Shown in pieces: positions 38,259 to 40,906 of a stretch of DNA of 64,000 bases. Source of the stretch: Chrysemys picta bellii (Eukaryota > Chordata > Testudines > Emydidae); assembly GCF_011386835.1 (NCBI RefSeq), contig NC_088797.1, positions 63,079,587 to 63,143,586 of the forward strand. Direction: 5' to 3'. Each line of letters opens with the position of its first letter. Position 1 is the first letter of the stretch. Below the pieces are notes generated by a model. The model was not told where the DNA came from, ran no database searches, and saw only the letters and a program-made list of their open reading frames with translations. The translations under genes and the position numbers were made by a program.

Positions 38259-38356
38259 TTTATAGTATGTCTGTACAGTGTCCAGCACAGTGGGGTTCAC
38301 CCTGGCTCTTAGGCGCCCCACAAAAAATGGTAAATAACAATAATAATAAATAATAA
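38259..38356 (+). repeat. Old dispersed retroelement tail ending in (TAA)n
   Basis: 'gtctgtacagtgtccagcac' and 'ggctcttaggcgccccac' lead into a (TAA)n tail at about 38335-38356. This resembles a common amniote repeat whose 5' side may be represented at 48588-48655. The tail is the insertion site of the following element. Confidence 0.5.
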
Positions 38357-40900
38357 CACTGGTCTACAATTTTTGAGAAGTCGTCTGCTTCAGAGATAAA
38401 ATGTGCTATTTATTATGTATTTTGATGTGCTGAATTCAAATATGACAATTAAAACAACTGATTGGCTACTGTTTCTAAGATATTTAAGTTTTTACATTTT
38501 ATGTCTATGTATATTGTGTAGATAGTAGAGTTTTAATCATAAATTGTATACCTAGGTCTTTTCATGTGTGTATGGTTGCTTTACATGATAATAGATCACC
38601 TGTCCTGTTTATGTAACACTTTAAAAATCAGCAAAAGGGTTATATAAATAAAATTTATTATGAAACAAAAGGCAAAAAAACTATTCTGTACATAGTTTAG
38701 TCCTATTCAGTGTCTACTCGGCGCTTCTTGGCTTGTCTCTTGTATTCATTAAATGGAGCATCTCTTGTCACTGTCCAGCAATAGTCTGCAAGAATTGATG
38801 GGCTCCATTTGCCCTGATAGCGTTTCTCCATTGTTGCAATGTCCTGGTGAAATCGCTCGCCGTGCTCATCGCTCACTGCTCCGCAGTTCGGTGGAAAAAA
38901 ATCTAGATGAGAGTGCAAAAAATTTATCTTTAGTTACATGTTGCAGCCAAGGCTTTTGTATGCCTTGAAGAGGTTTTCTACCAACAACCTGTAGTTGTCT
39001 GCCTTGTTGTTTCCGAGAAAATTTATTGCCACTAACAGGAAGGCTTCCCATGCCGTCTTTTCCTTGCCACGCAGTGCATGGTGAAATGCATCATCTCGAA
39101 GAAGTTAACGAATCTGAGGACCAACAAAGACACCTTCCTTTATCTTAGCTTCACTTAACCTTGGAAATTTTCCACGGAGGTACTTGAAAGCTGCTTGTGT
39201 TTTGTCAATGGCCTTGACAAAGTTCTTCATCAGACCCAGCTTGATGTGTAAGGGTGGTAACAAAATCTTCCTTGATTCAACAAGTGGTGGATGCTGAACA
39301 CTTTTCCTCCCAGGCTCTAATGACTGTCGGAGTGGCCAATCTTTCTTGATGTAGTGGGAATCTCTTGCACGACTATCCCATTCGCAGAGAAAACGGCAGT
39401 ACTTTGTGTATCCAGTCTGCAGACCAAGCAAGAGAGCAACAACCTTCAAATCGCCACAAAGCTGCCACTGATGTTGGTCATAGTTTATGCACCTCAAAAG
39501 TTGTTTCATGTTGTCATAGGTTTCCTTCATATGGACTGCATGACCAACTGGAATTGATGGCAAAACATTGCCATTATGCAGTAAAACAGCTTTTTTCTCA
39601 TCGTCGATGAATCAATGAACAGTCTCCACTCATCTGGATCGTGAACGATGTTGAGGGCTGCCATCACACCATCGATGTTGTTGCAGGCTATAAGATCACC
39701 TTCCATGAAGAAGAATGGGACAAGATCCTTTTGACGGTCATGGAACATAGAAACCCTAACATCACCTGCCAGGAGATTCCACTGCTGTAGTCTGGAGTCC
39801 AACAGCTCTGCCTTATTCTTGGGTAGTTCCAAATCCCTGACAAGGTCATTCAGTTCACCTTGTGTTATGAGGTGTGGTTCAGAGGAGGAGGTTGGGAGAA
39901 AATGTGGGTCCTGTGACATTGATGGTTCAGGACCAGAAGTTTCATCCTCTTCCTCTTCCTTGTCTGACTCAAGTGAGAATGATTCTGGTGCATCAGGAAC
40001 CGGCAGTCCTTCTCCGTGGGGCACTGGGCATATAGCTGATGGAATGTTTGGATAATGCACAGTCCACTTTTCTTCTTTGACACACCTTTCCCAACTGGAG
40101 GCACCATGCAGAAGTAACAATTGCTGCTATGATCTGTTGGCTCTCTCCAAATCATTGGCACTGCAAAAGGCATAGATTTCCTTTTCCTGTTCAACCACTG
40201 GCGAAGATTTGTTGCACAAGTGTTGCAGCATATGTGTGGGGCCCACCTCTTGTCCTGATCTCCAATTTTGCAGCCAAAATAAAGGTGATAGGCTTTCTTA
40301 ACCATAGTGGTTATACTGCGCTTTTGTGATGCAAAAGTCATTTCACCACAAACATAGCAGAAGTTATCTGCACTGTTCACACAAGTACGCGGCATCTCTG
40401 CTCACTTTGGCTAAACAGAAATGTGTCCCTTTGCAAAATCAAACACTGACAAATAGCACGACACTGTATGATTTCTAGAGCTGATATAGGGCAATTTGTT
40501 CAGCAGAGTGATGTAAGCTTAGTTATGATTGCATCATCCATGACTTCTAGGAATAACATGATGCAATTCATATAATGTATGACGCAATACCAGCTTCAGA
40601 TTGCATCATTCATTGTTTTGCCTAAAGAGCAAGTACTGTCCAAACCCAGTCATAGATTTATTCATAGATCCAGTCAAAGATGTGTTTTAGTCATTTCTGG
40701 TTTAAATTGAGATCCCTTCCCTTTATAACTCACTTATCCTCCGCCATTCCCAAGTCAAGGGTCGTATATACTGACCCAATAGCATATCTTGAAAACTAGA
40801 GCCAATCAACAATTTTAAGCATCATTTTCATTCTCAGTGACCCAGAATTAGTAAAGTTGGACTACATTTATTTCAGAAGCATTTTGGCTGTAGAGCAGTG
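38357..40900 (-). mobile_element. Unclassified DNA transposon-like element with CACTG termini
   Basis: The left end reads CACTGGTCTACA and the right end TGTAGAGCAGTG, a 12-bp inverted repeat with one mismatch. 'taataa' lies directly outside both ends (38351-38356 and 40901-40906), which fits a target duplication. The site is a TAA repeat, so the length of the duplication is ambiguous. Beyond the 12 bp, both ends share the loose words 'gaagtc/gcttc'. The 2,544-bp unit holds one gene on the minus strand, with about 500 bp of non-coding DNA before it and 350 bp after it. CACTG ends occur in EnSpm/CACTA and Transib transposons, but the protein does not look like either family as I know them. Confidence 0.65.
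38703..40395 (-). pseudogene. Cys-rich candidate transposase of unknown family (two frameshifts, two stops)
   Basis: The start is the Met codon ending at 40395. The N-terminal part (40395-39865) has CX2C at residues 13-16, His54 with Cys56/57/60, and CX2C at 93-96: a ZAD-like zinc-binding module, probably for DNA binding. An acidic Ser/Glu-rich linker follows. After a frameshift at about 40080 comes HLITQGELNDLVRDLELPKN and DEWRLFIDSS. A second shift at about 39590 leads to QLCGDLKVVALLLGLQTGYT, FLCEWDSR and LPPLHIKLGLMKNFVKAID. In-frame stops lie at about 39103 and 38940. The end has DEHGERFHQDI and RYQGKWSPSILADYCW. Asp in CGDLK, Asp in CEWDSR and Glu in DEHGERFHQD could form a DDE catalytic triad, which is inference. 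I recall similar 'uncharacterized' proteins from many arthropods. Not a recognisable host gene. Confidence 0.68.
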
Positions 40901-40906
40901 TAATAA

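Follow-up and report, generated by a model that had tools for sequence, protein, structure and literature searches.

Structure of the element

The window analyzed here is a 64,000-nucleotide stretch of the genome of the painted turtle Chrysemys picta bellii (NCBI RefSeq assembly GCF_011386835.1, contig NC_088797.1). Positions 38357 to 40900 hold a 2,544-bp unit that is flanked by TAA on both sides and carries one central gene on the minus strand; it very probably represents a degenerate member of a Chapaev3 family of DNA transposons (CMC/CMCT clade) whose spread has left about 2,900 or more copies in the turtle genome. An earlier note, made from the sequence alone, had described a 12-bp inverted repeat with one mismatch as bounding a 2.54-kb unit, and the ends CACTGGTCTACA (38357 to 38368) and TGTAGAGCAGTG (40889 to 40900) are indeed complementary at 11 of 12 bases. 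Such a repeat by itself is not beyond chance, because the window contains 15 CAC..GTG pairs that are at least 11/12 complementary and lie 1 to 5 kb apart; among these, only the 38357/40900 pair has identical 3-bp flanks. That the boundaries are real follows from diverged inverted homology over the leftmost 127 bp or so (score of 52 in a local alignment, matched by 0/1,000 shuffles) together with other copies in the same genome that share both terminal bases. Because the left flank consists of (TAA)n, the left target duplication of the window copy is ambiguous.

The gene runs from a start codon at 40395 to near 38703 and contains the blocks CGDLK, CEWDSR, and DEHGERFHQD that the note had read in it. 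Its pieces lie in three frames and are interrupted by two in-frame stops; the window copy is thus broken and nonfunctional. It also reads Arg at C333 and Asn at H490, two zinc-motif positions that are otherwise invariant. The features are listed in Table 1.

Table 1. Features of the element, with positions in the window. Residues are numbered as in the relative P0002; conservation counts refer to 57 relatives chosen from the 120 homologues listed.
Feature	Position	Strand	Evidence
Whole element, very probably Chapaev3 type; this copy nonfunctional	38357..40900		19/21 fetched copies match base 1-2544
Left terminal inverted region, with CACTGGTCTACA as its outer 12 bp	38357..38483	+	Local alignment, 0/1,000 shuffles; inverted pair I1
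Right terminal inverted region, CACTGCTCTACA reading inwards	40784..40900	-	Inverted pair and local alignment
Target-site duplication TAA, left	38354..38356	+	Flank comparison; ambiguous in window copy
Target-site duplication TAA, right	40901..40903	+	Flank comparison
Transposase gene, broken here; 564 amino acids in intact copies at other loci of the genome	38703..40395	-	Three frames, two in-frame stops
N-terminal Cys/His module, 108 amino acids; predicted ZAD-like fold at about residues 8-73	40072..40395	-	Structure prediction and fold search
First catalytic Asp (putative), FIDSS, D260	39611..39613	-	57/57 relatives; predicted strand end
Second catalytic Asp (putative), CGDLK, D314	39450..39452	-	57/57 relatives
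C(2)C zinc motif region, FLCEWDSR; C333 reads Arg here	39369..39392	-	C333, C336 in 57/57 relatives
His of LH motif, PLHIKLG, H382	39246..39248	-	57/57 relatives
H(4)H motif region, NFLHSHLDF; H490 reads Asn here	38898..38924	-	H490, H495 in 56/56 relatives
Third catalytic residue (putative), Glu of DEHGERFHQD, E512	38856..38858	-	56/56 relatives; predicted helix 508-524
ATGATGCAAT repeats upstream of the gene, four copies with at most 1 mismatch	40528..40609		Starts 30, 21, and 21 bp apart

Copies, target-site duplications, and an empty site

When the assembly that contains the window was searched, 40 of 3,060 candidates were scored and 41 matches were listed, all with at least 94% identity. 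From these we assembled a sample of 21 copies, i.e., the window copy and 20 picked from the matches listed. Nineteen of them match the full extent from base 1 to 2544, L016 lacks the last base, and L022 extends only to 2381. Matches that appeared to stop around base 1686 or 2160 did so at the limit of what was listed: the 11 such copies that were fetched all continue beyond these points, and 10 reach the right end. Exact target duplications of 3 bp flank 15/21 copies (10 TAA, 4 TTA, and 1 TAT) and are lacking in L016, L018, L022, L024, L025, and L027. The base preceding the duplication is A in 12/15 cases and G in 3/15, and the base following it is T in 11/15 and C in 4/15. L018 carries about 190 extra bases within the element near its right end.

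Our second sample was drawn from places with an exact left end, of which we took the first 20 listed for a single contig, and is for these reasons not random. Seventeen of these copies reach the right end, either at 2,513 to 2,675 bp (14 copies) or in shorter forms that keep both ends (3 copies), and the remaining 3 fall short; 12/20 have exact duplications (9 TTA and 3 TAA). Internal-deletion derivatives as the main form of the family are therefore unsupported in this nonrandom sample. The left-end 24 bp occur 2,873 times in the genome, and the reversed control was found 0 times.

Copy L026 provided a paralogous empty site: a search with its flanks, joined with one TAA, gave matches that cross the junction in all of the 40 places scored out of 4,944 candidates. 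In an alignment of four such places the insert is absent from every one, with TAA at the site in three and TCA in one. The insertion site of L026 lies within a high-copy turtle repeat, as seen from the 4,944 first-look candidates and the 83 to 96% identity among the 40 scored.

The 21 copies diverge by 0.9 to 1.9% from their majority sequence and by 1.8 to 3.6% pairwise (mean, 2.5%), and an intact 564-amino-acid frame is present in 5 of them. The shared boundaries, the duplications, and the L026 empty site bear out the note's claim of a cut-and-paste element with these ends.

The transposase and its relatives

Homologues were sought with a read-through of the broken gene bearing X in place of the breaks. 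Of 8,000 proteins scored, 2,288 had an E value of 0.001 or lower and 120 were listed; the five named sources among the latter are a lamprey, a firefly, a frog, a leech, and the painted turtle itself (P0056, Chrysemys picta bellii). The 120 entries show no Pfam domain, and their sources assign them no functional name. As the note supposed for uncharacterized arthropod proteins of this type, such animal proteins, including the firefly one, are members of the same family. A protein of the lamprey Lethenteron reissneri (P0024) is 80% identical across 84% of the query, a similarity that would fit the horizontal transfer reported for Chapaev3. Among IMG/VR viral contigs, 59 stretches match a search pattern and none encodes a relative. 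Literature searches found no paper for DEHGERFHQD and, judging by titles and abstract openings, no transposon paper among the 18 retrieved for the end sequences.

The putative Asp-Asp-Glu (DDE) set falls at predicted strand and helix positions of an RNase H-type recombinase fold, like that of RAG1 and Transib, which was predicted for P0002. The note had anticipated such a fold; its statement that the protein does not look like Transib transposases is at odds with this prediction. E522 and D536 are also invariant (56/56 relatives). The C(2)C pair sits 19 and 22 residues past D314, the same spacing as in RAG1 (D708, C727, and C730). As the H(4)H motif we rejected HGERFH, which straddles the putative catalytic Glu and whose first His (H510) is conserved in only 48/56 relatives versus 56/56 for H490/H495; the latter are probably the pair meant in PMC4079192.

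Probable assignment to Chapaev3

Comparisons with published elements refer to excerpts of the papers cited. The hallmarks of Chapaev3 given in PMC4079192 are CAC..GTG termini, a TWA (W, A or T) duplication always preceded by A and followed by T, the motifs C(2)C, LH, and H(4)H, and a DDE triad. The turtle element ends in CAC..GTG; TAA or TTA makes up 14/15 exact duplications among the 21 copies and 12/12 in the second sample; one site has an empty counterpart; the three motifs are present in the relatives; and D260 and D314 are conserved in 57/57 and E512 in 56/56 of them. The note had proposed an undescribed or poorly described superfamily. The absence of any Pfam-A family and of functional names in the 120 listed homologues would suit such a novelty, but since ends, 3-bp TWA duplication, C(2)C/LH/H(4)H motifs, and DDE set match published Chapaev3 (PMC4079192), the superfamily is not undescribed. 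The examined hallmarks all agree except for strictly A/T neighbors and the fold is of the RAG1/Transib type, which leaves the novelty highly improbable. We consider it improbable as well, if somewhat less so, that the element belongs elsewhere in the CMCT clade, in a lineage (animal EnSpm/CACTA or a sister to Chapaev3) with the same termini, 3-bp duplication, and C(2)C plus H(3-4)H motifs. PMC12730594 does give these motifs, CA..TG termini, and 2- to 5-bp duplications as clade-wide, but it is for Chapaev3/Chapaev that a preference for TWA and an LH motif have been reported (PMC4079192). Moreover, the CACTA transposase model Transposase_21, which we take to be PF02992, is absent from the 23 families matching any of the 57 relatives at an E value of 1 or lower. 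Transib duplicates 5 bp of its target, whereas both copy samples show 3 bp.

The intact frame in 5/21 copies might also suggest that the unit is no mobile element but a host gene that arose from such a transposase by domestication. The thousands of copies dispersed in the genome, with the ends of the element and with duplicated targets, argue against this, and the broken window copy refutes it for the locus itself, so that the probability of domestication is close to nil. Copies with common boundaries, empty sites for one copy, and a predicted recombinase fold likewise mean that none of the contrary outcomes named in the earlier note occurred.

Several points weigh against the assignment to Chapaev3. 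The A-before and T-after rule holds in only 12/15 and 11/15 duplications, i.e., as a preference here versus "always" in PMC4079192; one duplication is TAT, and 6/21 copies lack an exact one. The assignment was made by comparison with published descriptions, and the empty-site evidence comes from another copy than that of the window, L026. The structure was predicted on P0002 instead of the broken window copy, and Foldseek superposes it on RAG1/Transib only loosely (TM score, 0.40 to 0.47; root-mean-square deviation, 7.4 to 9.3). No Pfam model matches the catalytic core in the 57 relatives at an E value of 1 or lower, and profile searches of PDB sequences find no RAG1 or Transib; they returned one unrelated weak match, 6hiv_DQ (E values, 1.8 and 1.6).

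Membership in Chapaev3 nevertheless remains very probable, and the element thereby identifies a large group of uncharacterized animal proteins lacking Pfam domains as Chapaev3-type transposases. The Chapaev3 families Merrow, Garfield, and Conan, from both vertebrate and invertebrate hosts, have the same termini, TWA duplication, and motifs (PMC4079192). Garfield encodes 556 amino acids in a 2,289-bp element, compared with 564 amino acids in 2,544 to 2,550 bp in the turtle. The turtle element has a single exon like most Chapaev3, whereas Merrow and Garfield have two, and the sampled turtle copies, mostly near full length, differ in this from the published families (PMC4079192). With RAG1, which rearranges antibody genes, and Transib (PDB 6xnx and 6pqx) it shares the predicted fold but neither the 5-bp duplication of Transib nor profile-level sequence similarity, and its N terminus differs from that of Transib. 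No turtle is among the species named in the excerpts of PMC4079192. A limited literature search on Chapaev with turtle or Chrysemys, which is no proof of an unpublished family, met no description of a turtle family: the Chapaev passage of PMC7397244 concerns anole, and the DNA transposon transfer into turtles in the excerpt of PMC11008031 involves a hAT element, different from the one described here.

A predicted ZAD-like N-terminal module and upstream repeats

The transposase starts with a conserved Cys/His module. Folded alone, it retrieved ZAD domains of zinc-finger proteins as the top fold matches (the first 6/9 entries, and the first 5/38 rows in a second search) with moderate scores and a Foldseek E value of 0.022. 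The note's ZAD-like Cys module is thus upheld by predicted fold, with weak support in sequence. The module and the ZAD (PF07776) of insect and vertebrate zinc-finger proteins are alike in predicted fold but differ in the Pfam score: the best E value was 0.042 in 1/14 module members, and 2/57 relatives matched (best, 0.068), which falls short of a convincing match. The window copy's own module gave no PF07776 match, and in profile searches with the module no PDB entry matched. An N-terminal Chapa zinc domain, considered here by description only, is reported in Chapaev3 (PMC4411706), and a literature search found no paper pairing the words "ZAD" and "Chapaev." Tentatively, with odds we place somewhat below even, the N-terminal zinc module of Chapaev3 transposases could be a ZAD domain and have a common ancestor with its counterpart in zinc-finger transcription factors; ZAD would then perhaps be transposase derived, or the reverse. 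This link, which rests on structural models, may be new. Dimerization of the transposase is a plausible role for the module.

About 130 to 215 bp upstream of the transposase start lie the four ATGATGCAAT repeats, at a density reached in 0/300 shuffles. All four are retained in 17/21 element copies and three in the remaining 4. They are possible transposase-binding or host-factor sites, and resemble the C/EBP-ATF composite site. An Rfam scan of the whole window gave no match.

Proposed mechanism and implications

Intact elements encode a single transposase of 564 amino acids, in which a zinc module at the N terminus precedes a predicted DDE core of the RAG1/Transib type. If RAG1 and Transib are taken as models, the two CACTG ends would be bound and paired by a transposase dimer, which would excise the element and insert it at a TWA target, with duplication of 3 bp. 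Dimerization, cleavage chemistry, the roles of individual residues, and possible present-day activity are what we infer by this comparison.

The turtle family is an addition to a group of transposons that are known to transfer horizontally, and with about 2,900 exact left ends and some intact frames it offers a usable case for dating and for tests of Chapaev3 activity. ZAD zinc-finger transcription factors are the most abundant class in many insects and also occur in vertebrates. If the ZAD link is true, it bears on the origin of the defining domain of this major class of insect transcription factors; if, in addition, the module corresponds to the Chapa domain, which RAG1 is said to share, the link would reach the RAG1 N terminus.
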